Under the pieces are notes generated by a model. That model was given only the letters and a program-made list of their open reading frames with translations. It was not told where the DNA came from and made no database searches. The position numbers were made by a program, and so were the translations under genes. Positions 8,011 through 34,278 of a DNA stretch of 64,000 nucleotides are shown in pieces. Source of the DNA: Prauserella halophila (GTDB lineage Bacteria; Actinomycetota; Actinomycetes; Mycobacteriales; Pseudonocardiaceae); the NCBI RefSeq assembly GCF_024171895.1, contig NZ_JAMTCQ010000008.1, forward strand, positions 372,001 to 436,000, in the 5' to 3' direction. Each line of letters starts with the position of its first letter. Positions within the stretch are counted from its first letter, which is position 1.

Positions 8011-9553
8011 CGCCCGTCGTGCCCGCGGGCCGGAGCGTGCCGGCCGCCGCAACGGCCGACAGCACTGTGCGGGCCTTGTTCAGCGCCTCGTTGTCCTCGT
8101 AGTCGGGCTCGGAATCGGCGACGATCCCACCGCCCGCCTGAACGTAGGCGACCCCGTCGCGCACCAGGGCCGTGCGGATCGCGATCGCGGTGTCGGCGTC
8201 GCCCGCGAAGTCGAGGTAACCCACGACGCCGCCGTACAGTCCGCGCCGGGTCGGTTCGAGCTGTTCGATGAGCTCCATCGCCCGCACCTTGGGTGCCCCG
8301 GACAGCGTGCCCGCGGGGAAACACGCGGTCACCGCGTCGATCGCCGCCGCGTCGTCGGCGAGCTCGCCGGTCACGGTGGACACGATGTGCATGACGTGGC
8401 TGTAGCGCTCGATCGTGAAGAAGTCCACCACCTGCACCGAGCCCGGCCTGCACACTTTGCCGAGGTCGTTGCGGCCGAGGTCGACCAGCATCAGGTGCTC
8501 GGCGCGTTCCTTCTCGTCGGCGAGCAGCCCCTTGGCCAGCTGGGCATCCTCCTCGGCGTCGGTGCCGCGCCAGCGGGTTCCCGCGATCGGGTGCGTCGTC
8601 GCCTTGCCGTCCCGCACCGTCACCAGCGACTCGGGGCTCGAGCCGACGATGTCGAACCCGTCGAGGCGCAGCAGGTACATGTACGGGCTCGGGTTGGATG
8701 TCCGCAGCACGCGGTAGATGTCGAGCGCGTCGGCACCGGTGCGCAGTTCGAACCGCTGCGAGGGCACGATCTGGAACGCCTCGCCCGCGTGGATGGCCTC
8801 CTTCGCCGCCTCGACGGCCGCGTGGAAATCGTCCTTCGTGCGCGCACGGTCGAACTCGGGGGCGGGCCGGTCGAACACCGCGTTCGTGGCGGGGGCGGGC
8901 GTGGCGAGCTGCGCCGTCATGGCGTCGAGCCTGCGCACCGCGTCCTCGTAGGCGGCATCCACCCGCTCGGGGCTGTCGTCCCAGTTCACCGCGTTGGCGA
9001 TGAGCGTGACCGTGCCCTCGTGGTGGTCGAACGCCGCGAGGTCGGTCGCCAGCAGCATCGTCAGCTCGGGGATGTCGAGATCCTTCTCGGCGATCTCCGG
9101 CAGCCGTTCGATCCAGCGCACCGCGTCGTAGCCGATGTAGCCGACCATGCCGCCCGTCAGCGGCGGCATGCCGGGCAGCGGCTCGGTGTGCAGCGTCTCG
9201 AGCGTCTCGCGCAACACGGCCAGCGGATCGCCGCCGGAGGGCAGACCCGCGACGGGTGTCCCCGTCCACACCGCCTCGCCGTCGCGCACGGTCAGCGCCG
9301 ACGGGCTGTGCACCCCGATGAACGACCATCGCGACCACGACTCGCCGTTCTCCGCCGATTCGAGCAGGAACGTGCCGGGGCGGTCCTCGGCGAGCTTGCG
9401 GTACAGGGCGACGGGCGTGTCGGCGTCCGCGAGCACGCGGCGGACGACCGGGATCACGCGCCGGTCCTCGGCGAGTTCGCGGAACTGCGCGGCCGACGGC
9501 GTGACGGTGCCCAGGCCGGCACGGGCGGCCTCGACGGAATGGGCAGTGACCAT
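7997..9553 (-). CDS. trpE: Anthranilate synthase component I
   Basis: This 518-residue chorismate-utilising enzyme makes anthranilate, with ammonia from a TrpG partner not encoded in the window. It has the N-terminal LLES tryptophan-sensing motif ([13 protein letters not shown]), [10 protein letters not shown], and the C-terminal catalytic blocks [24 protein letters not shown] and [13 protein letters not shown]. The ATG at 9553 is chosen by family length; the open frame continues upstream but that part overlaps the divergent TetR gene. The start is 73 bp from that gene, so the trp promoter must be compact. I could not find a leader peptide with tandem Trp codons in this gap. Confidence 0.95.
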
Positions 9554-26502: not shown

Positions 26503-26586
26503 GTGGACACGACTCGCGCCGAAGCCCTCCACCTCACCGGCGAGCGCACGGTGCCGGGAGTGCCGGAGGAGAATTACTGGTTCTAG
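26503..26586 (+). pseudogene. Displaced 5' end of the methyltransferase gene
   Basis: Twenty-seven codons, GTG to TAG, encode a peptide containing LHLTGERTVPGV and ENYWF. This is the N-terminus expected for Rv3030-type SAM methyltransferases. The match to the family stops exactly at the 13-bp repeat, and a TAG follows inside the element. Joining 26503-26581 to 33590-34278 gives an uninterrupted frame of 256 codons, so this fragment is the native start of the gene at 33.5-34.3 kb. Confidence 0.9.
26569..26581. other. attL core
   Basis: GAGAATTACTGGT, identical to 33577-33589, marks the left end of the integrated element inside the coding sequence of the methyltransferase (codons for E-N-Y-W). 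Upstream of the core the two att regions keep scattered identity because both encode the same protein segment. Confidence 0.9.
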
Positions 26587-26592
26587 ACCACT

Positions 26593-26679
26593 CGCACGTT
26601 GTGCGGTAACTGCTTTCCGCAGGTCGCCTATCGACGTTGTGCCCGAAGTTCTCGTGGCAGAACGTCGACCATATAGGCG
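26593..26679. repeat. Structured left end of the element
   Basis: The segment holds a perfect CGCAC-GTT-GTGCG dyad (26593-26605). A long imperfect stem follows, pairing CGCCTATCGACGTT (26625-26638) with AACGTCG (26661-26667) plus ATAGGCG (26673-26679), with an inner TGCC/GGCA helix. ACGTTGTGC is repeated at 26596 and 26634. CGTGGCAGA (26653-26661) recurs near the right end at 33452-33460. These are candidate integrase arm sites or a structured RNA; no function is proven. Confidence 0.45.
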
Positions 26680-26740
26680 GCCCCGGCCGGCGCAGTAACG
26701 CCGGAACCCGGGGCCTTGACCGGAAGGAAGGTTCCGGCCC

Positions 26741-27013
26741 GTGCTCACCATAGGTCTCGCGGTCGCGTGCGCACTACTCGCCGCGACTGCTCTCACGTTC
26801 GCGTTGCGCGCCCGCCACTGGCGGCGGCAGGCCAACAAGTACAAGGAAGCCTTCTGCGCTACCAGCGGCGTCGCCGCTCGGCACCGGGCCGCGGTGGAAC
26901 ATCTCGCCGCGCGGCTGCGCGACCATGCCGTACCGGACGGGCTCACCGCGGCCGACGCTGCCCTGTTCGCCGACAAGTTCGACCACGCCGCGCGGTGGGG
27001 TGAGGTCGAGTGA
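26741..27013 (+). CDS. Small membrane protein at element left end
   Basis: This 90-residue protein opens with one hydrophobic helix (residues 2-24) followed by basic RARHWRRQANKYKEAF and a helical cytoplasmic tail. The GTG start has a purine-rich GGAAGGAAGG upstream. The next gene overlaps it (GTGA). I do not recognise a family. Its place at the end of the element, opposite in direction to the core genes, suggests cargo such as superinfection exclusion or phage interference, which is a guess. It may be read from the captured host promoter at 26491. Confidence 0.65.
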   Translation: MLTIGLAVACALLAATALTFALRARHWRRQANKYKEAFCATSGVAARHRAAVEHLAARLRDHAVPDGLTAADAALFADKFDHAARWGEVE

Positions 27014-27402
27014 CCGGCGACGATCTGCACGCGCTGCGCGGCGAGCTCGAGGCCGTCGAACGCCGGCTCGGCGACATTCGCGCGCGCCTCGACGAGCACC
27101 GCGGCGCCCCTCCCGCCGGCGCCGGCGGCATCCGGTCCACCCACCCCGGCACCGGCGAGACGCTGGAGCGTGTCGAGGCGATGCACGAGGGTGGCACCGT
27201 GGCCTACCGCGTCACCGTCGACGGCGTGTTCGTCGGCTGGGTCGGCGACGGCGCCCCGTGGCGCGGCCACCGTTACGGCGGCCGCCGCTGGTGGGCTACC
27301 TGGCGGCAGGACGGTGACACCGCCGCCCGCTGGTCTTCAGAGCTCGAATATCCGACCCGTGCGCGCGCTCTGGCCGCGCTGGTCGCTCGCATCACGTCCT
27401 GA
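27010..27402 (+). CDS. Coiled-coil protein of unknown function in element
   Basis: This 130-residue protein has an N-terminal coiled coil (LHALRGELEAVERRLGDIRA, about residues 6-35), a Gly/Pro hinge and a compact C-terminal part rich in Trp, Gly and Arg (FVGWVGDGAPWRGHRYGGRR). The GTG overlaps the stop of the membrane-protein gene, so the two are co-translated and may interact. No known family is recognised. A hairpin 18 bp after the stop probably terminates the transcript. Confidence 0.65.
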   Translation: MTGDDLHALRGELEAVERRLGDIRARLDEHRGAPPAGAGGIRSTHPGTGETLERVEAMHEGGTVAYRVTVDGVFVGWVGDGAPWRGHRYGGRRWWATWRQDGDTAARWSSELEYPTRARALAALVARITS

Positions 27403-27419
27403 GCACCTGCCCGCAACGT

Positions 27420-27448
27420 CGCCGACGTCAGACCTGCTGACGTCGGCG
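27420..27448 (+). terminator. Hairpin after the left-end gene pair
   Basis: CGCCGACGTCA (27420-27430) and TGACGTCGGCG (27438-27448) form a perfect 11-bp stem with a 7-nt loop, 18 bp after the stop codon at 27402. Confidence 0.65.
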
Positions 27449-27861
27449 GCCTTGTCGGCAGTGTGCCGGCGATTCCCGGTTTCCTCAGCACCGCTTCCCG
27501 GGCGAATGCCCGCGCGGCCCCGTGACGGCGGGGACGTGCGGGTAAGGCGGGCTCTCACGTAAGCCACCGCGGCGTGAGCGCGGCTCTCTGCCCCCATGGC
27601 CAGGGGCGGGGCGACACATCCGGCACGCCGCGTCCCCACGATGGGGCGCGGCCGGTAGTGCTGGGCTGGGCAGAAATGGCGTGGGAGTGTCCCGACCGAA
27701 CGAAGTGAGGGAGGGAACCCCGTATGCCCTTTCCCGGCCGTTCCGCTACGTAGGCCGCCGTTTCGGCGCTGAGCGTGTCCCTACGGTCTGAACGCCCGGC
27801 GGCCGGGGTTCGGACCACCGGACCGCCGCGCAGTCGCACACGGCTTGACGCAGCGCAGCGA

Positions 27862-27905
27862 AACGGCCCCGCCGGGGAAAGGGAAGGAAACCCGGCGGGG
27901 CCGTT
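27862..27905 (-). terminator. Hairpin after the capsid gene
   Basis: A perfect 15-bp stem (27862-27876 with 27891-27905) with a purine-rich 14-nt loop lies 31 bp beyond the capsid stop codon. It should end the capsid operon. Confidence 0.7.
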
Positions 27906-27935
27906 CGTCTTCTCACCTCGACAGAGGAGAAGTTC

Positions 27936-29039
27936 TTACGCGGTCACGTCGACCGCCTGAGCGAACCCGTCCGTGAGGCTGACGCCGTACCCGCCGACCA
28001 GGGCCGTGGCCACGGTCCGAACACCCGTCTTCACGTCCTCATCGAACGCGGTCATGGCGCCCTGCGCCTCGAAGAACAACGTGCCCGCGCGCAGGTTCGA
28101 CACGACCATGGTGCCGCTCGTGACCGCACTCGAGGGGTACACCAGCGCGCCGGCGAACCGCTGGAACGCCTCCGCCGTGGTCTCGCCGCCGGTCGGCTGC
28201 ACGTCCTGCAGCAGGTTCGCGTCGTCGGGATGCGACAGAATCACCAGATCGGCAGGGTCCATCGAGGCCGTGGCGTCCAACACCTGCGCGATCGCCTTAC
28301 GAACGTCCTGCGGCGGGTCGTCGAACGCCGCCGCCGTCCCGGCCGCCGACTCCACATCACTGATCAGCGCGCCGTCGAGGTCCTTGGCGATACCCAGTTG
28401 ATGCATTGCCACGATGGCGCGCGCATCGGTGCCGAACCGGGCCTCGACGTTGAGATCGGTGAACCGTCCGAACCGGCGCAGCGTCGCCGACCCTGCCGTG
28501 CTCGAGTCGTATTCCGCCAACGAGGCGCCCTCGGACGCGCCGGCCTGCGCGGTCGGCAACGTCAGCTCGGGGAACTCTGCGGCGACCGCGTCCGCGTCGA
28601 CGCGGCGCACCCCGCCGATCACATGCAGGATCCGCGGCCCCGTCAACGGGTTGCTTCCCCATTTGCGCGGTGACCCCAGCTGGCCGGTCCCGACCGTCGC
28701 GTTCGTGACCTGCCGCAACTGCTCCGGCGACAAGTTGGCCTCAACCCGCCGCGCGGTGCGCGTGTTGATCGCGTCCTGCACCGCCTGCACGGCTTCGCCG
28801 CTGTAGGTCAGCGGGTGATCCGACTGCCCGCCGCCGGCCGACGCCGTGAAGGCCTGTACGTCGTTCGGCGCCGGCGCGGTGTAGGCGGCCTGCCGCTGGC
28901 GCACCTGCTGGTCACGCTGCGCCTGCGAGAGCTGGTTCTCCAGCGTCTCGTAACGCTCGACCTCGTCGCTGGTCAGGCTGCGACCCTCGGCACTGTCCAC
29001 GATGGCGGTCATATCCGCCATGATCTGCTCGATGTTCAC
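27936..29039 (-). CDS. HK97-type major capsid protein of the element
   Basis: This 367-residue protein begins with a helical scaffold-like segment (MADMTAIVDSAEGRSL to about residue 50) and a disordered linker, as in the delta domain of HK97-fold capsid proteins. The body follows the family course: a central NVEARFGTDARAIVAMHQLG helix region, SHPDDANLL, and a C-terminal VVSNLRAGTLFF to VGGYGVSLTDGFAQAV section resembling the A-domain end. Identification rests on pattern, not on alignment. The GTG start overlaps the TGA of the preceding gene. No protease gene is present, so maturation would depend on a helper or not occur. Confidence 0.7.
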   Translation of the reverse strand: MNIEQIMADMTAIVDSAEGRSLTSDEVERYETLENQLSQAQRDQQVRQRQAAYTAPAPNDVQAFTASAGGGQSDHPLTYSGEAVQAVQDAINTRTARRVEANLSPEQLRQVTNATVGTGQLGSPRKWGSNPLTGPRILHVIGGVRRVDADAVAAEFPELTLPTAQAGASEGASLAEYDSSTAGSATLRRFGRFTDLNVEARFGTDARAIVAMHQLGIAKDLDGALISDVESAAGTAAAFDDPPQDVRKAIAQVLDATASMDPADLVILSHPDDANLLQDVQPTGGETTAEAFQRFAGALVYPSSAVTSGTMVVSNLRAGTLFFEAQGAMTAFDEDVKTGVRTVATALVGGYGVSLTDGFAQAVDVTA

Positions 29040-29371
29040 GTGTTCTGCTCCGTTCCCGCGAACCGGACCGCATGCCGCGCCCGGATAAGTTGCTCCCGCT
29101 TGTGATCCGGCCCCGCGGCGGCATCGACCATCCCGGCCGCCAACAGCTTGTCCTCCTCGCTCACCCGCTCCTGACCGTCCACGCGGGCCTGAATCGCGGA
29201 GATCTGGGCGCGCAGCTCCGGACCCGCGGCGGAAGCGGCGAGATGGCTTGCGATCTCCGAACGGTGCGAATGGGCCAGATTCTCGACCTGCCGCGCGTGC
29301 ATCTTGTCCGCTTTGCGGGCCAACGCCAGCCACTGCGCCTGCCGCTCGGCCGACAACGGATTCCTGCTCAT
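29036..29371 (-). CDS. Helical protein of unknown function in capsid operon
   Basis: This 111-residue, highly charged, almost all-helical protein starts MSRNPLSAERQAQWLALARK. It sits between the HTH gene and the capsid gene with 4-nt overlaps on both sides (ATGA and GTGA). That position and the helical character would suit a scaffolding or capsid-size factor, or a terminase partner. No sequence family is recognised, so this is inference. Confidence 0.65.
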   Translation of the reverse strand: MSRNPLSAERQAQWLALARKADKMHARQVENLAHSHRSEIASHLAASAAGPELRAQISAIQARVDGQERVSEEDKLLAAGMVDAAAGPDHKREQLIRARHAVRFAGTEQNT

Positions 29372-29706
29372 CGCTGCCACACCCCCTGCGCGCCGGCCGC
29401 CAGCTCCATATCCGTATCCGCCGCCACGTCGTCGACCGTGGTCGCATCCGTCGCGCCCGCCTCCCGTAGCGCACCGTCGACATCGACCACGCACTCACGC
29501 GCCAACGCCTTCAACCCGTGCTGCCGACTCAACCGGTGCCACGTCGACTCCGAGATACCCAACGCCGAGCACACCTCGGCCACGGTGAGCGTGGCCGCAT
29601 CGACCATCACACGCGCCCGCACCAACAGCGCGAGCTTGTGATGCTCGGCGGCCCGCTTCTCCTGCCGCAACGTCTGCGCGAGCTTGTGCCGCTGACCGTC
29701 ATCCAT
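29368..29706 (-). CDS. Helix-turn-helix protein, possible small terminase-like factor
   Basis: This 112-residue protein has a basic N-terminal helix and a clear helix-turn-helix (TVAEVCSALGISESTWHRLS, about residues 41-60). An acidic C-terminal tail follows. Such HTH proteins can be small terminase subunits that recognise packaging sites, or repressors; being first in the capsid operon favours the former slightly. The ATG at 29706 is chosen because a TATACT -10 box lies 7 nt upstream, which predicts a leaderless mRNA starting at this codon; an ATG at 29724 would lie above the -10 box. Confidence 0.65.
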   Translation of the reverse strand: MDDGQRHKLAQTLRQEKRAAEHHKLALLVRARVMVDAATLTVAEVCSALGISESTWHRLSRQHGLKALARECVVDVDGALREAGATDATTVDDVAADTDMELAAGAQGVWQR

Positions 29707-29713
29707 GACACCA

Positions 29714-29731
29714 AGTATAGCCATATGCGCA
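29714..29731 (-). promoter_or_regulatory. Leaderless promoter of the capsid operon with overlapping dyad
   Basis: In the minus direction TATACT (29719 to 29714) is followed by 7 nt and the ATG at 29706. Just upstream lies the palindrome ATGCGCAT (29724-29731), with a further CATGC copy nearby. This is a likely repressor site controlling late expression. A -35 box is weak (TTCATG at 18 bp). Confidence 0.55.
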
Positions 29732-29792
29732 TGTCTGCATGAAACCGACGCGCCGGGCCGATACCGGCCAATCCGCCCCGGGCGTCGCACAC

Positions 29793-29819
29793 AAAAAAAT
29801 GACGGGAGCGGCGGGTCAT
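29793..29819 (-). terminator. T-tract terminator after the replication operon
   Basis: ATGAC (29799-29803) and GTCAT (29815-29819) form a short stem followed, in the minus direction, by seven T residues. Such a T run is rare in this DNA. It separates the ATPase/zinc-finger operon from the capsid operon. Confidence 0.6.
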
Positions 29820-29892
29820 CTGGGGCCAGGGTTGTGAACTTTTCGCGGGCGTCGGAGAGCAGCGCGGCCCGCTCGGCGACCTCGATGGCCGG

Positions 29893-30120
29893 TCACGGCG
29901 TCGTGTTCTCCTGCCGGTTCCATCGGTGGGTGTGTTCGGGTGTGGGGCCGTCGTCGGGTAGTCCGACGAGGCGGCGGAGGTAGACCAGCCGTGCGCGGTC
30001 GATGCTGTTCGCCTTGCTGGTGCGCGGGGTGCGGCGGCGTTGCTGGGTGTAGTGCCGTTGGCAGAGGCCGCGGGCGTAGTGGGTCCGGTGGCAGTCGGTG
30101 CGGTCGCACTCGCGGGTCAT
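29893..30120 (-). CDS. Small zinc-finger protein of phage type
   Basis: This 75-residue protein has the pattern C-x4-C-x9-C-x2-H in the first 25 residues (CDRTDCHRTHYARGLCQRHY), a form common in actinophage small proteins. A basic middle and LRRLVGLPDD follow. The four Cys/His residues should bind zinc. Its ATG overlaps the ATPase stop (ATGA), so it belongs to the replication operon. DNA binding is likely; an exact role is unknown. Confidence 0.7.
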   Translation of the reverse strand: MTRECDRTDCHRTHYARGLCQRHYTQQRRRTPRTSKANSIDRARLVYLRRLVGLPDDGPTPEHTHRWNRQENTTP

Positions 30121-31508
30121 CCGGTCGGCCCTTGCGTCTTGTTCCCACTTGTTCCGTCTTGTTCCGGGAACAGGTGCGCGTCTTGTTCTCTTGTTCCCGG
30201 CCCTTTAGGGCCGGGACAAGAACAGGTCGCGCTGCCCGGATGGGAGGTGTGGGCGCCGGAACAAGTCGGTACGAACACGCGAGCGCCGCGGGAACCGGTC
30301 GACTCGGTGAGGTGGCCGGCGATCGCGAGGCGTTCGAGTGCGTCGCAGGCTGCTTGTCGGTTCCCGCCTGCTGTGACGCGAACCTTGTTCTGGGTGGCCT
30401 GCTGACCGGCCGCGGTGATCTCGGTGACGACCGCGAGCACGTGCGCGTCGAGTTCGGCGTGCGGGTCGGTCTCGGCCGCCTGCTGCCCGTCCTCCGGCGG
30501 TGCGACGAACGCGAGGTCGAGGAAGTCCTTCCACTCGCGCTCGTCGTCGACGATCAGTGTGCCGAGGTATGTCCGGCCGGGTGTGCGCGTGGCCTTGCCG
30601 TGGCGTCGCAGGTGTCCGGGCCGGTCCTTGGTGACGAACACGTGCGAGACGCCGCGCCGGCCTCGGCCGAACGGTTCGGCGTTCTCGAGTACCAGCAGCG
30701 AGCCGGACAGGGCGTTGCCTTTGTGGATGCTGCCGAGCGCGGTCCGGCCGCGCGCTTCCCGGTCCTTGACGACGTGATCGCAGCCGAGCACGGCCGCCCC
30801 GGCGGTGGTAAACGGGGTGATCAGGCGTCGGCGGAACGCCGCGACGCCGCCCTCTTCGCGTATCTCGGCCCCGTGCAGCGCCATGCCCTCGTTGATGCCG
30901 TCGAGGATCACCAGCGCCGGCGACAGGGCGAGCAGCTCGGCCCGGTCGGCCTCGGTGATCGCACGCTCGGGCGCCACGAACCGGAACCGGTCGAGAATGG
31001 CCCTGTCGTCCACGTGGAGCGCCTGTAGACGTTCCACGGTGTCGGAGGGGTCGGACTCCTCAAAGTGGACGTACACGACCACCTGGTCGGCCTGTAGCTC
31101 GGCGGCGGCGCAGGCGAGCGCGTACCAGGACTTGCCGGATTCCATCTCGCCGATGACGGTGTGTTCCTTGCCGGGGTAGAGCGTGCGCAGTCCGTCGTCG
31201 CGGACGATGCCGACGGCCGGTTCGGGCCGCGTGATCTCGCCGCGCAGATACGGGCCCAGGTCGACCGGTCGCCACGCCGAGGGCTCGGCCGCCGGCGCGG
31301 TCGACGGGCCGCCATGGGTGCGGCCAGCGGCCGCACCCTGCTCGTTGGCCGGGTGCTGGCTGGCCTCCCCGGGCGGTTCCTCGTGTGGCGGAACGTCGGC
31401 CCAGGGGTCGACGGCCACCCCCTCGGCGTGATCGCGGTCGGCGAGGTACACGACCTCGCCGGTCTCGGTGTCCCAGTCGACCGGCCCCTCGTTGCCGTAG
31501 CCGATCAC
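30117..31508 (-). CDS. RepA/DnaB-like P-loop ATPase of the element
   Basis: This 463-residue protein has a disordered N-terminal 90 residues and then a RecA-like AAA ATPase domain. The Walker A is GEMESGKSW (near residue 120), the acidic HFEESDP loop follows, the Walker B is ALVILDGINEG, and the sensor region is GCDHVVKDREARGR. A winged-helix-like C-terminal region follows (TQNKVRVTAGGNRQAACDAL). This layout is that of RepA-type hexameric helicases of plasmids and satellites, so it probably drives element replication. The last residues are low complexity because the DNA there is an iteron-like array. The GTG at 31508 overlaps the upstream gene (GTGA). Confidence 0.82.
   Translation of the reverse strand: MIGYGNEGPVDWDTETGEVVYLADRDHAEGVAVDPWADVPPHEEPPGEASQHPANEQGAAAGRTHGGPSTAPAAEPSAWRPVDLGPYLRGEITRPEPAVGIVRDDGLRTLYPGKEHTVIGEMESGKSWYALACAAAELQADQVVVYVHFEESDPSDTVERLQALHVDDRAILDRFRFVAPERAITEADRAELLALSPALVILDGINEGMALHGAEIREEGGVAAFRRRLITPFTTAGAAVLGCDHVVKDREARGRTALGSIHKGNALSGSLLVLENAEPFGRGRRGVSHVFVTKDRPGHLRRHGKATRTPGRTYLGTLIVDDEREWKDFLDLAFVAPPEDGQQAAETDPHAELDAHVLAVVTEITAAGQQATQNKVRVTAGGNRQAACDALERLAIAGHLTESTGSRGARVFVPTCSGAHTSHPGSATCSCPGPKGPGTREQDAHLFPEQDGTSGNKTQGPTG
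30139..30265. repeat. Iteron-like TTGTTCC array, candidate replication origin
   Basis: TTGTTCC occurs at 30139, 30149, 30159 and 30191, and TTGTTCT at 30183. The first three are spaced exactly 10 bp, one helical turn. Inverted GGAACA/GGAACAA copies lie at 30165 and 30258. A CCCGGCCC-TTTA-GGGCCGGG hairpin (30196-30215) sits among them. The array lies inside the 3' end of the ATPase gene, as the lambda origin lies inside gene O. Function is inferred. Confidence 0.6.
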
Positions 31509-31795
31509 GCGGCCACCCCCTCGGCGAGTACGGCCTCGGAGAGCTCCGACAGAAGGCCGAGGCCGTGGAGGTGGTGCCAGGCGAGGCGGGCGGCCTCGGT
31601 GGACCGCGGCGACGGTGGCACCGCGGCACGGCAGTCGTACGGGTCGGCGTGGCCGCAGTCGAGCGGGGCGAGCCGGCGCGCAGCGGCGCGGCGACGACGG
31701 TCGAGGTCGGACCGCTGCGGTACCGTCGAGGGTGACGTGTTCGTGTCGTTGTCCGCCGCCTCGGTTGCCCAGCCGGGGCGGCGTTTCTCTGCCAT
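31505..31795 (-). CDS. Unknown protein in the replication operon
   Basis: This 96-residue protein has a polar N-terminus, a basic RRRRAAARRLAPL stretch, a CGH...C cluster (LDCGHADPYDC) and a hydrophobic helical end (HHLHGLGLLSELSEAVL). The ATG at 31795 overlaps the upstream stop by one base (TGATG); a GTG one codon earlier would give a GTGA overlap. The Cys/His group hints at metal binding. No family is recognised. Confidence 0.6.
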   Translation of the reverse strand: MAEKRRPGWATEAADNDTNTSPSTVPQRSDLDRRRRAAARRLAPLDCGHADPYDCRAAVPPSPRSTEAARLAWHHLHGLGLLSELSEAVLAEGVAA

Positions 31796-32103
31796 CACGC
31801 CGCATCACCGCGGGCCTGACGGTCCGACGTGGACGCGGCCTTCCGGGCGCGCCGCTTGGCCTCGCGGTTGGCGGCCATCTGCTTGAAGTAGGCGCGCTTG
31901 GCCGATTCGAGTCGCCGGGCGTACTCGCCGGGGTCGCTCTGTTCGAGCTCGTCGGGGATGCCGTACTCGCGTGCGATGCGGCGATCGCGTCCGGCCCACG
32001 TCGCCGCGAGGCGGGCGCGGCGGTCGGTCGTGCGGGCCCACGAGGCGTGAGCAGCAGCCGACATGTACGCGGATACTTGCTCGGGCGTGGGAAGTTCGGG
32101 CAT
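31795..32103 (-). CDS. Unknown charged helical protein, first in replication operon
   Basis: This 102-residue protein starts MPELPTPEQVSAYMSAAAHA and is rich in Arg and Ala, with a strongly basic C-terminus (REAKRRARKAAS). It is preceded by a GGAAGGGGTGG-like binding site and a 107-bp gap that must hold the promoter of the small-gene/ATPase operon. No family is recognised. Confidence 0.6.
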   Translation of the reverse strand: MPELPTPEQVSAYMSAAAHASWARTTDRRARLAATWAGRDRRIAREYGIPDELEQSDPGEYARRLESAKRAYFKQMAANREAKRRARKAASTSDRQARGDAA

Positions 32104-32210
32104 GGGGAGGCCACCCCTTCCGGGGTTAGCCGCTGTCCCATGCGGTGAAGATTTGCGCTGCGCGCGGGGCCCTAAATGACGTTGTGGCTACACCGTAACC
32201 GATGTGCGAA

Positions 32211-32513
32211 TCAGGGCTCGATTCGGACACTCCGTGTCGGGTGGCACTGACACACGTATTCCACCTCGCGCCCGATGACCCGTTCGAGCGGGTGCGTCGT
32301 GAACATCGACTTCGTCGCCTCTCCGTCCACAGTGGTGCGCGTGGACCGGACCTGTCCGGCCACCCACCGGCCGTGACCGGGCACGAGCCACACCGTGTAG
32401 AGCGGCCGGCCGGCGGGGCATCGCACGGCGTGAAGACGATGCAACGTCGCCGGGTCCCCCTCCAGGCCGTAGAACATCCGGAGCGCCTCGGCGACCCGGC
32501 CCTTGGCGCTCAC
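32211..32513 (-). CDS. Unknown protein coupled to the integrase
   Basis: This 100-residue protein has a GTG start overlapping the integrase stop (GTGA) and no other start signal, so it is translated only after the integrase. It contains a beta-rich middle (PLYTVWLVPGHGRWVAGQVRST) and a late CQCH group. A recombination directionality factor is possible by position, but the sequence lacks the basic winged-helix look of most Xis proteins. Unknown function. Confidence 0.6.
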   Translation of the reverse strand: MSAKGRVAEALRMFYGLEGDPATLHRLHAVRCPAGRPLYTVWLVPGHGRWVAGQVRSTRTTVDGEATKSMFTTHPLERVIGREVEYVCQCHPTRSVRIEP

Positions 32514-33427
32514 AGCCGGTCACCCCGCGCGAGCCGGCGCGCGGCCTCGCGAGCCTGCTCGTCGGCCACATGCGAGCCGTAACGTCGGGACATCGTCGGA
32601 GTGGTCCACCCCGCGAGCCGTTCGAGCTGGTCGTCGGACATGTTCGCGCCCTTCAGGTCCGCGGCCCAGGTGTGCCGGAACTGGTGCGGGTGCAGATGAG
32701 TCAGCCCGGCGGCCTCCGCTCGCCGGGACAACATCTCGGCCACCCCTCCCCCGGTCACGCGGGCGCCGGGCCGGTCGGCCCGCGTCGACAGGAACAGCGC
32801 CGAGCCGTTCGCTTGTGGCCGCTGCGCCCGGGCGCGCATGTACTTACGGAGCGCGAGGGCGGTACGGCCGCCGAACGGCACCGCGCGCACCTTGCTGCCC
32901 TTGCCGGTCACAGTGACCGTCTGGTGCCGCACGTCGAGGTGTTCGACATTGATGCCCACGAGTTCGGCGCGGCGTAGTCCACAGTCGAGCAGCACGCGCA
33001 CGATCGCGGTGTCTCGCCGGTCGACGAACGTGCCGCCCGACATGCTTCTCAGCAGCGTTGACAGGTCGTCGTCACTGATCACCGGGACGGGCTCGGGTTG
33101 CGGCATGGGCAGCTCGAGCCGCGCGGCGGGGTTGTGTTCAAGACCGCTGTCGGGCTCGGCCGCGACGTAGCCGAGCCACTTCCGCACCGCGATACCGCGC
33201 ACCCGCCGGGTGCTGTCGGCCATGCCCTTGTCGACCAGGTGGGCAAACCAATCACGCACGTGCGCGTGCGTGAGGTCCGCGGGCATCGTCACCGCCGGGT
33301 ATGCGGTGCGCAGCCAGGTGAGGAACTGGTCCACGCTGCGCCGATAGACCCTGATCGTCTCGTTGCCGGGACGGCCCGCTGCGAGCTCCAGCAACCACTC
33401 GTCGAGCCAATCGTTAAGGTGATCCAC
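32510..33427 (-). CDS. Tyrosine integrase of the element
   Basis: This 305-residue tyrosine recombinase has an N-terminal SAM-like core-binding domain (residues 1-110). The catalytic domain shows the first arginine in CGLRRAELVG, the HQFRHTWAAD box (H-x-x-R) and the nucleophile in TTPTMSRRYGSH. It would cut at GAGAATTACTGGT. The GTG at 33427 is preferred to a TTG at 33463, because TTGTCT-N17-TATTCT lies 7 nt upstream and predicts a leaderless mRNA from this codon. The gene reads inward from attR. Confidence 0.93.
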   Translation of the reverse strand: MDHLNDWLDEWLLELAAGRPGNETIRVYRRSVDQFLTWLRTAYPAVTMPADLTHAHVRDWFAHLVDKGMADSTRRVRGIAVRKWLGYVAAEPDSGLEHNPAARLELPMPQPEPVPVISDDDLSTLLRSMSGGTFVDRRDTAIVRVLLDCGLRRAELVGINVEHLDVRHQTVTVTGKGSKVRAVPFGGRTALALRKYMRARAQRPQANGSALFLSTRADRPGARVTGGGVAEMLSRRAEAAGLTHLHPHQFRHTWAADLKGANMSDDQLERLAGWTTPTMSRRYGSHVADEQAREAARRLARGDRL

Positions 33428-33434
33428 GCAAGGC

Positions 33435-33463
33435 AGAATAGCCGCGGTTCCCGTGGCAGACAA
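33435..33463 (-). promoter_or_regulatory. Leaderless integrase promoter
   Basis: Read on the minus strand, TTGTCT (33463 to 33458), a 17-bp spacer and TATTCT (33440 to 33435) are followed by 7 nt and the integrase GTG. It lies between the integrase and the new start of the methyltransferase, so the two divergent genes share this short region. Confidence 0.6.
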
Positions 33464-33465
33464 CG

Positions 33466-34278
33466 ATGTACGAAACCGACGGTAAGCGGGTGTCAGCGAC
33501 AGTGTCCGACGAAATCGCAGGTGAGGCCGCTTGCCTCGCGGCTTCCGGGGAGCGTACAGTCCCCGGTGTTCGCCACGAGAATTACTGGTACCGCCGACAC
33601 GAAGCCGCGTATCACGCGCTGCTGCCGTACTGCGCCGACGCCGTCGTCCTCGAAGCCGGATGCGGTGAGGGGTACGGCGCCGGCCTGCTCACCGAGCACG
33701 CGGCGCAGGTGATCGCACTCGACTACGACGGTGCCGCGATCGGGCACGTCGCCCGGAGCTATCCCACCGCGCACGCGCTGCACGCCAACCTCGCGGTGCT
33801 GCCGCTGATCGACGCCGGCCTCGACGTCGTCGCCAATCTCCAGGTACTCGAACACCTGTGGGACCAGTACGGCTTCCTCGCCGAATGCCGCCGCGTCCTC
33901 CGACCCGGGGGACGGCTGCTGGTCACCACCCCGAACCGGCTCACCTTCACCCCCGGCAGCGACACCCCGCTGAACCCGTACCACACCCGCGAGCTCTCAC
34001 CGTCCGAATTGGACGAGATGCTCCGCGAGGCCGGATTCGCGGTGCACTGGCTCGCCGGTCTGCACCACGGCGCCGGGGTGCGCGCACTCGACGAACGCTA
34101 CGGCGGGTCGGTCATCGACGCCCAGCTCGACGTCGTCATGGGCTCGCTGCCCGGGCAGGCGTCGTGGCCCGGATCGCTGCTCGCCGACGTCGCCGCGATC
34201 CGGGCGGACGACTTCGACATCCACGATCGCAACCTGGACGCCAGCCTCGACCTCCTCGCCGTGGCGGTCCGGCCGTGA
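33466..34278 (+). CDS. SAM-dependent methyltransferase with element-supplied N-terminus
   Basis: This 270-residue class I methyltransferase has motif I VLEAGCGEGYGAGL, VIALDYDGAAIGHV, LQVLEHLWDQY and a C-terminal end matching Rv3030. In mycobacteria its gene neighbours GH57 and GT4 genes of the methylglucose polysaccharide pathway. The first 41 residues come from the integrated element and replace the native start found at 26503. They end in GERTVPGV and ENYWY, so the family motif is preserved. The ATG at 33466 is the first start; GTG codons at 33490 and 33502 are alternatives. The transcript must now start inside the element. The stop overlaps the GH57 start (GTGA). Confidence 0.87.
   Translation: MYETDGKRVSATVSDEIAGEAACLAASGERTVPGVRHENYWYRRHEAAYHALLPYCADAVVLEAGCGEGYGAGLLTEHAAQVIALDYDGAAIGHVARSYPTAHALHANLAVLPLIDAGLDVVANLQVLEHLWDQYGFLAECRRVLRPGGRLLVTTPNRLTFTPGSDTPLNPYHTRELSPSELDEMLREAGFAVHWLAGLHHGAGVRALDERYGGSVIDAQLDVVMGSLPGQASWPGSLLADVAAIRADDFDIHDRNLDASLDLLAVAVRP
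33577..33589. other. attR core
   Basis: GAGAATTACTGGT is identical to attL (26569-26581) and encodes part of the ENYW motif of the restored methyltransferase. About 38 bp left of it encode the same peptide as the native gene with different codons. Confidence 0.9.

Follow-up and report, generated by a model that had tools for sequence, protein, structure and literature searches.

A 7-kb integrated element with a chimeric capsid gene in Prauserella halophila as a probable helper-dependent phage satellite

The 64,000-nucleotide stretch of Prauserella halophila DNA analyzed here (contig NZ_JAMTCQ010000008.1, positions 372,001 to 436,000; referred to as the window) harbors an element of 7,021 bp (26569-33589) within the 5' part of a methyltransferase gene; the genome itself measures 5.05 Mb. 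We consider this element to be probably a helper-dependent phage satellite whose capsid protein is fitted to the portal and protease of a helper, and we infer this helper as well as excision and packaging. Judged by its domain identities, the capsid protein is a chimera, in which a delta domain of the tailed-phage type is joined to a shell core of the satellite type. Together with four sisters the element forms a group of five, each in a different genome and spread over two genera. In the labels used below, G denotes a genome and L a locus; the sisters are L007 (from G049), L008 (G004), L019 (G397) and L128 (G001), and a further locus, L020, is from G377.

Comparison with congeners showed that a 7-kb stretch with an integrase gene, bordered by 13-bp repeats, lies inside a gene that is uninterrupted in congeners. 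At the insertion place the methyltransferase gene was uninterrupted in all six congeners (L072, L073, L074, L075, L076, L077), and joining the two flanks of the window gave the same reading frame and N-terminus as in their uninterrupted gene. In G001 the methyltransferase gene has a frame change, but further downstream than the insertion place. The empty site in the congeners is the decisive evidence for the ends of the element, and the 13-bp repeats alone carry little weight: an exact repeat of at least 13 bp was present in 44 of 2000 random flank pairs drawn from the initial 27 kb or so of the window. When 45-nt stretches around both cores were compared, 34 of 45 positions matched, a value reached by 0 of 200,000 random pairs. 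The boundaries and direct repeats proposed in the initial annotation were thus confirmed by the empty site and the restored frame. The severed methyltransferase start meets a stop just past the left core. Reading frames at the other end showed that the right end of the element provides a replacement 5' end which keeps the methyltransferase open, as a new start at 33466 reads in frame through the right core into the gene. The features of the element and its target are as follows (att, attachment site; aa, amino acids; HTH, helix-turn-helix).

26503..26586, plus strand: original 5' end of the methyltransferase gene, severed by the insertion (27 codons, then stop); N-terminus as in the intact gene of the congeners
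26569-26581, no strand: left att core, 13-bp direct repeat GAGAATTACTGGT
26741..27013, plus strand: 90-aa protein, 72% identical to that of L128 and related to that of L008; no Pfam or NCBIfam match
27010..27402, plus strand: 130-aa protein, 92% identical to that of L008 and 90% to that of L128 over 78 aa; no family match
27403..27699, no strand: conserved non-coding block with possible stem-loops, 73-78% identical to L007, L008 and L019; also in L128
27936..29039, minus strand: capsid protein, 367 aa, with scaffold (delta) domain (residues 1-56) and shell core (residues 57-367)
29036..29371, minus strand: 111-aa orphan, its gene immediately upstream of that for the capsid; unmatched in Pfam and PHROGs
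29368..29706, minus strand: 112-aa HTH protein; HTH_17 E 9e-6 and excisionase model E 8e-4, both below cut-off
29893..30120, minus strand: 75-aa protein like the N-terminus of phage HNH endonucleases (PHROG 5351 E 1.6e-6)
30117..31508, minus strand: 463-aa ATPase, AAA_25 / RepA-type replicative helicase; AAA_25 E 1e-4, below the Pfam cut-off
31505..31795, minus strand: 96-aa protein, 61% identical to that of L128
31795..32103, minus strand: 102-aa basic protein with relatives in L007, L019, L020 and L128
32211..32513, minus strand: 100-aa protein with no assigned function
32510..33427, minus strand: tyrosine integrase, 305 aa (PF00589 E 3.5e-27)
33466..33576, plus strand: element-supplied start and first methyltransferase codons, frame kept open
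33466..34278, plus strand: target host SAM methyltransferase, re-formed with the 5' end from the element (PF08241 E 3e-18)
33577-33589, no strand: right att core, 13-bp direct repeat GAGAATTACTGGT

Assignment of the capsid protein to the HK97 lineage is indirect and follows a chain of sequence profiles. The window protein itself matched no Pfam or PHROGs capsid model. The core shared by window, L007 and L019 was aligned by hhalign to the cores of L008 and L020 (96.9%, E 1.3e-10, 252 columns), and the L008 plus L020 profile in turn matched HK97 gp5 structures at E about 1e-11. The L007 capsid matched Pfam Phage_capsid_4 (PF25209) above cut-off, as did two of three members in another scan. By this chain, with no direct model match, the HK97-type capsid named in the initial annotation was borne out. 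A profile of eight capsids also hit HK97 gp5; as ordinary phage members drive that match, it was not relied on. AlphaFold models reached a pLDDT of 37.7 for eight full-length capsids, with confidence only for about the first 50 residues (helices), and of 38.0 for 19 cores, where Foldseek of the model against the PDB returned nothing at E <= 0.001. Models of such low pLDDT are uninformative rather than evidence against an HK97 fold. Of 345 genomes of the class, 28 had PF25209 matches, and seven of the matched sequences gave no placement of the window capsid. No match to the window capsid was found in phages, plasmids, viral contigs or genome contigs, nor any to its first 60 residues in phages, and in the class sample the capsid profile recovered its own genome only (1/394). 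The capsid genes seem to be under constraint, with dN/dS (simple counting method, GC-rich codons) of 0.21 for L007/L019 and 0.39 for the core of window/L007, which speaks against decay of the capsid gene. Values were 0.20-0.34 for the 130-aa, 0.48 for the 90-aa and 0.59 for the 96-aa protein.

Domain identities were taken from one alignment of nine capsids, in which the cut at residue 56 was set by us. Residues 1-56 of the window protein were 62% identical to L021, 43% to L009, 39% to L022 and 20% to L007/L019, whereas residues 57-367 were 57% identical to L007/L019 and 12-16% to the phage capsids of L021, L009 and L022 (12% for L021). L021 lies in a prophage region that also has genes for a portal, a large terminase, a ClpP-type protease and tail proteins; the L009 capsid gene adjoins portal and large terminase genes, and that of L022 a large terminase gene. 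Between L007 and L008 the pairing was opposite, as scaffold domain (72%) and protease (74%) were similar but the core only 25% identical, and their DNA similarity ends near the same scaffold/core boundary. From these opposite pairings, scaffold and shell appear to have been exchanged separately. As protease and delta domain are common to L007 and L008 while the core is not, the delta domain seems to travel with the protease there. The helical first 50 or so residues of the AlphaFold models agree with the helical HK97 scaffold described in PMC10275583.

Sisters of similar size and layout were found at other integration sites, as the initial annotation had proposed to look for. A capsid search in 100 related genomes gave five matches: the own genome, G049 (L007, 53%), G004 (L008, 27%), and G026 and G058 over parts. 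With a two-sequence capsid profile, 8 of 390 genomes of the family were matched, strongly in the own genome, G049 and G397, moderately in G004 and G377, and through the N-terminal domain only in G293, G026 and G163. L019 in G397 was found through this profile and L128 in G001 through the conserved non-coding block. Lengths between the repeats were 7,021 bp in the window, 7,122 bp in L008 (31-bp repeat), 6,974 bp in L019 (19 bp) and 7,246 bp in L128 (21 bp); for L007, a GC-rich 13-bp repeat, possibly due to chance, gave 7,534 bp with doubtful ends. The window element uses the 5' part of the methyltransferase gene, L008 lies within a called gene, in its 3' end, L019 at tRNA-Met and L128 at the 3' end of a gene that by eye resembles a sigma factor gene.

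One integrase family is common to all five elements, with 31-34% identity between the window and its four sisters (31-40% when L020 is included), and the 90-aa and 130-aa genes are common to window, L008 and L128. The replication gene varies: the window has one for a RepA-type ATPase, L128 one for a phrog_6012 helicase (E 5.6e-123) and L007 one for an O-like replication initiator (E 4.6e-10). Head genes vary as well. L007, L008 and L019 have protease and capsid in this order, the window has a capsid without a protease, the 111-aa gene occupying the place of the S78 protease of these three sisters, and L128 has a protease (PF04586 E 7.5e-7) without a recognized capsid gene. In a PHROGs scan of the four sisters, with some small frames outside the scan, no portal, terminase or tail gene was detected. 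The protease profile matched 29 of 390 family genomes, the own genome not among them, and had no match in viral contigs. Gene lists for 17 of the protease loci comprised, by eye, 13 ordinary prophages (L057-L069) and two smaller elements (L054, L056); the other two, L055 and L070, were not resolved by the gene caller.

Several further observations concern these relatives. In the place of the capsid, the genes of L128 (9594-10641) encode a DUF3558 protein (PF12079 E 5e-13) and one of 140 aa for which no family match was convincing; they are possibly cargo. L020 (1-6836) is a contig of 6,836 bp cut at both ends, with integrase, capsid and replication genes by eye and no exact overlap of at least 20 bp between its ends. 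L054 and L056 are larger, about 9.5 kb by loose bounds. L054 (2424-12079, G042) contains a serine recombinase (by eye), an ATPase, an S78 protease and a PF05065 capsid. L056 (8888-17347, G359; about 9 kb) contains a tyrosine integrase-like gene, a PF05065 capsid, a PF04860 portal and a protease, and may stand midway between the 7-kb elements and capsid-forming satellites.

The remaining gene content was in line with the initial annotation, which had listed a tyrosine integrase, a RepA/DnaB-like ATPase and small genes and had noted the lack of portal, protease, large terminase, tail, lysis and conjugative genes. Read from the right end, the minus strand encodes the integrase, the 100-, 102- and 96-aa proteins, the ATPase, the 75-aa, HTH and 111-aa proteins and the capsid; the 90-aa gene followed by the 130-aa gene lies on the plus strand at the left end. 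Scans against Pfam (11/11 proteins), PHROGs (10/11, all except the 90-aa protein) and NCBIfam (9/11, all except capsid and 96-aa protein) gave the family matches listed above, which support the integrase and, below the Pfam cut-off, the plasmid/phage-type ATPase; genes for portal, protease, terminase, tail, lysis or transfer were not recognized. An FtsK/SpoIIIE-type transfer gene is a mark of actinomycete integrative and conjugative elements. The same scans gave no match to such a transfer gene or to a mobilization gene, and a conjugative element was dropped as a candidate, no transfer gene being recognized.

Among 50,697 phage records, 11 contained ATPase/primase/helicase genes with 27-39% identity to the ATPase, which was also 35-40% identical to ATPases of the plasmids p-XQ-29-C and pKRAD02 (CP146840.1, NC_009660.1) and 55% to the ATPase of L054. 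Both plasmids are small actinobacterial plasmids typed as non-mobilizable, and p-XQ-29-C has an FtsK-type gene. Members of this ATPase family also occur in viral contigs with phage genes (L131, L132, L133), in L133 as part of a 666-aa protein. The HTH and 111-aa proteins had no match in phages, and the 111-aa and 130-aa proteins none in viral contigs. Of the proteins for which the initial annotation had suggested searches, the ATPase had relatives in phages and plasmids, and the 111-residue protein had none in phages or viral contigs. The methyltransferase and the next genes (by eye GH57-type and glycosyltransferase) may resemble mycobacterial methylglucose lipopolysaccharide clusters.

The helper-dependent satellite we favor would operate as follows. 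Its integrase would have placed the element in the methyltransferase gene, and upon infection by, or induction of, a tailed phage the element would excise, with the RepA-type ATPase and adjoining small genes driving replication. Its one capsid protein would join head assembly, where the phage-type delta domain might let the helper portal nucleate heads from the satellite capsid protein, alone or, in the manner of Ccm of SaPIbov5, mixed with the helper capsid protein. The helper protease would mature these heads through the same domain, the helper terminase would fill them, for which the conserved non-coding block might serve as the packaging site, and tails of the helper would complete the particle. 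In HK97 the scaffold (delta) domain is removed by proteolysis. It is also the domain that the HK97 portal mostly contacts (PMC10275583), so that a delta swap should suit the portal and protease of the helper. Use of the helper protease would explain why the window element, unlike three sisters, has none of its own.

For a satellite speak the precise ends, the empty site in 6/6 congeners, the sisters with clear ends elsewhere and the ATPase relatives in small plasmids and tailed-phage contigs. We also count in its favor that the sisters retain the integrase family and the non-coding block but not the same head genes. The initial annotation had suggested small heads of the element's own; here the partial head sets of the sisters and the phage-type scaffold fit co-assembly with, or completion by, a helper better. 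That the capsid alone builds complete small heads, in the manner of capsid-forming phage-inducible chromosomal islands (PICIs) and with portal, protease, terminase and tail given by a helper, appears unlikely. An HK97-lineage capsid with a scaffold domain and a near-constant length of about 7 kb, suggestive of a size limit, would agree with it, but the published description of capsid-forming PICIs includes protease, portal, connectors and terminase (PMC10690885), none of which was recognized here, and L128 is without any recognized capsid gene.

Several results weigh against the HK97 assignment or against the satellite reading. As to the former, a profile built from window, L007 and L019 only did not retrieve any capsid from the PDB, hhalign returned nothing for PF25209-type sequences or for three tailed-phage cores, and L020 matches no capsid model itself but joins the chain via L008 (38.5% identity). 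As to the latter, higher dN/dS was obtained for the protease of L007/L019 (0.54, few changes) and the ATPase of window/L054 (0.67). Not every member needs the capsid, since no capsid gene was recognized in L128. L007 and L019 almost duplicate each other (93% over 3.9 kb), and the protease-delta link thus amounts to one independent comparison (L007/L008); absence of the protease together with a swapped delta domain was seen as a pair in one case, the window. The L021 protease is ClpP-type, yet related delta domains adjoin S78-type proteases (L009, L022), and specificity between delta domain and protease is only a candidate link. No helper was seen, as the own genome gave neither a PF04860 portal nor a phrog_9 large terminase, the only types searched. 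No packaging gene was recognized in the element, for which the non-coding block is only a candidate cos/pac, and the block had no match in phage records.

Almost as well as own heads, and likewise with low probability, survives a decayed prophage remnant, i.e. a tailed prophage stripped of its late genes except the capsid. The small size, the single virion gene and the own genome without a recognized helper (PF04860, phrog_9) would be expected of it, and in a Mycobacterium survey small prophage-like elements outnumbered full-length ones (PMC3986857). Against decay stand the four elements with clear ends, of 6,974-7,246 bp at different sites with a shared non-coding block, the open frames, the integrase and the ends, the dN/dS of capsid and 130-aa protein given above, and the recombination of integrases, replication genes and head genes as modules.

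Somewhat less likely still is an integrative, plasmid-like element in which a capsid or protease gene is retained for anti-phage interference or as a decoy and which spreads without packaging. Lone capsid or protease genes could presumably disturb head assembly, L128 keeps only the protease, and the ATPase is shared with p-XQ-29-C and pKRAD02. However, with no conjugation or mobilization gene recognized its spreading route would be missing, whereas p-XQ-29-C has an FtsK-type gene, and a PADLOC scan of five of the 11 proteins gave one match only, of the 112-aa protein to the HTH model mad1 (E 9e-6, 23.9 bits). An encapsulin-like compartment gene as cargo is very improbable: an HK97-lineage shell protein without portal or terminase would be in keeping with it, but the N-terminal domain is common with tailed-phage capsids, three sisters have the protease-capsid order, and there was no Pfam encapsulin match.

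Among published systems, Mycobacterium regions with integrase and major capsid genes, including phiRv1 and phiRv2, were described as candidate PICIs (PMC10654092). The window element resembles them as an actinobacterial element with an integration gene (PF00589 E 3.5e-27) and a capsid gene (by the profile chain) outside an intact prophage and with no complete virion set; helper dependence of those regions was proposed, not shown experimentally. Some of them carry DNA replication genes, as the window element carries a replication-type ATPase, and some carry terminase and scaffold genes, whereas the recognized head set here is the capsid alone. The tyrosine-integrase examples shown there use tRNA genes (PMC10654092), in contrast to the 5' part of a protein-coding gene in the window. 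Unlike phiRv-type regions, the window capsid is a delta/core chimera, and the likeness to phiRv1/phiRv2 is drawn from the descriptions in the papers, not from sequence.

SaPIbov5 is a satellite with a single HK97-fold capsid homologue, Ccm, which has its own delta domain, redirects helper heads and occupies pentamers (PMC8569155). The corresponding features in the window, an HK97-fold homologue with an N-terminal delta domain, are suggested by profile chain and domain identity. Ccm was the only SaPIbov5 protein found in heads (PMC8569155); SaPIbov5 is from a different phylum and the likeness is one of description. With capsid-forming PICIs (PMC10690885) the element shares only an own capsid gene, as protease, portal, connectors and terminase were not found beside it. 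The Streptomyces phage satellites MulchRoom and MiniFlayer have capsid genes in actinobacteria like the window, MulchRoom with a tyrosine integrase; they are described as having genes for terminase, portal, scaffold and adapter but none that is obviously for a replicase (PMC10690885), the reverse of a replication-type ATPase plus capsid only. Charybdis elements (PMC12324425) were set aside as unrelated in kind, being without an HK97 capsid.

The initial annotation had called the gene set unusually small. This holds for the single recognized virion gene, but such a set is less unprecedented in view of phiRv1/phiRv2-type regions and Ccm. The kind is thus known, both as integrase plus capsid regions and as a lone capsid homologue; new to the searches made are the capsid without protease, the sister with protease but no capsid, and the tailed-phage-type scaffold domain. 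Among the matches listed, no title or opening of an abstract dealt with elements of this kind in Prauserella or with the swapping of scaffold domains in capsids of satellites.

The conserved block (27403-27699) lies between the converging 130-aa and capsid genes and is a candidate packaging site or replication origin. At E <= 1e-4 it matched 17 of 361 family genomes, beyond E 1e-13 only the own genome, G004, G049, G397 and G001; the other 12 matches were 29-63 bp long. In the predicted structure, two-sided changes were seen in 10 of 50 pairs (four sequences), with a slightly unfavorable covariation term. A model of the block recovered, from 25 loci, the four on which it was built, with E >= 0.24 for the other 17 matches, and Rfam gave two weak matches far below cut-offs. 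Beside the block, L007 (11230-11620, minus strand), L019 (7620-8190) and L008 (8510-9036) contain a palindromic repeat, about 28 nt long and present in 2-4 copies at a period of 61-62 nt; none of these repeats was present in 27690-27940 of the window. They resemble a type I-E CRISPR mini-array, a reading that was considered and set aside. No cas gene was noticed on these three elements, and some intervening pieces are themselves palindromes. A 20-nt palindrome of one L008 piece (8701-8720) is present exactly in two IMG/VR contigs, L134 (5644-5663) and L135 (10370-10389), which differ in GC content.

More tentatively than the satellite nature of the element itself, we propose that an actinobacterial satellite family of about 7 kb may share out its head genes, each member carrying a different incomplete piece (only the capsid, only the protease, or the two together) and taking the rest from a helper, with the scaffold exchanged apart from the shell to fit whichever portal and protease is used, those of the satellite or those of the helper. 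If true, packaging of a satellite with one capsid gene would become directly testable, as the domain that contacts the portal in HK97 is swapped in the one capsid-bearing sister without a protease. A defined group outside Mycobacterium, with five members, a shared block and near-constant length, would also open phiRv1/phiRv2-like elements to study in soil bacteria.

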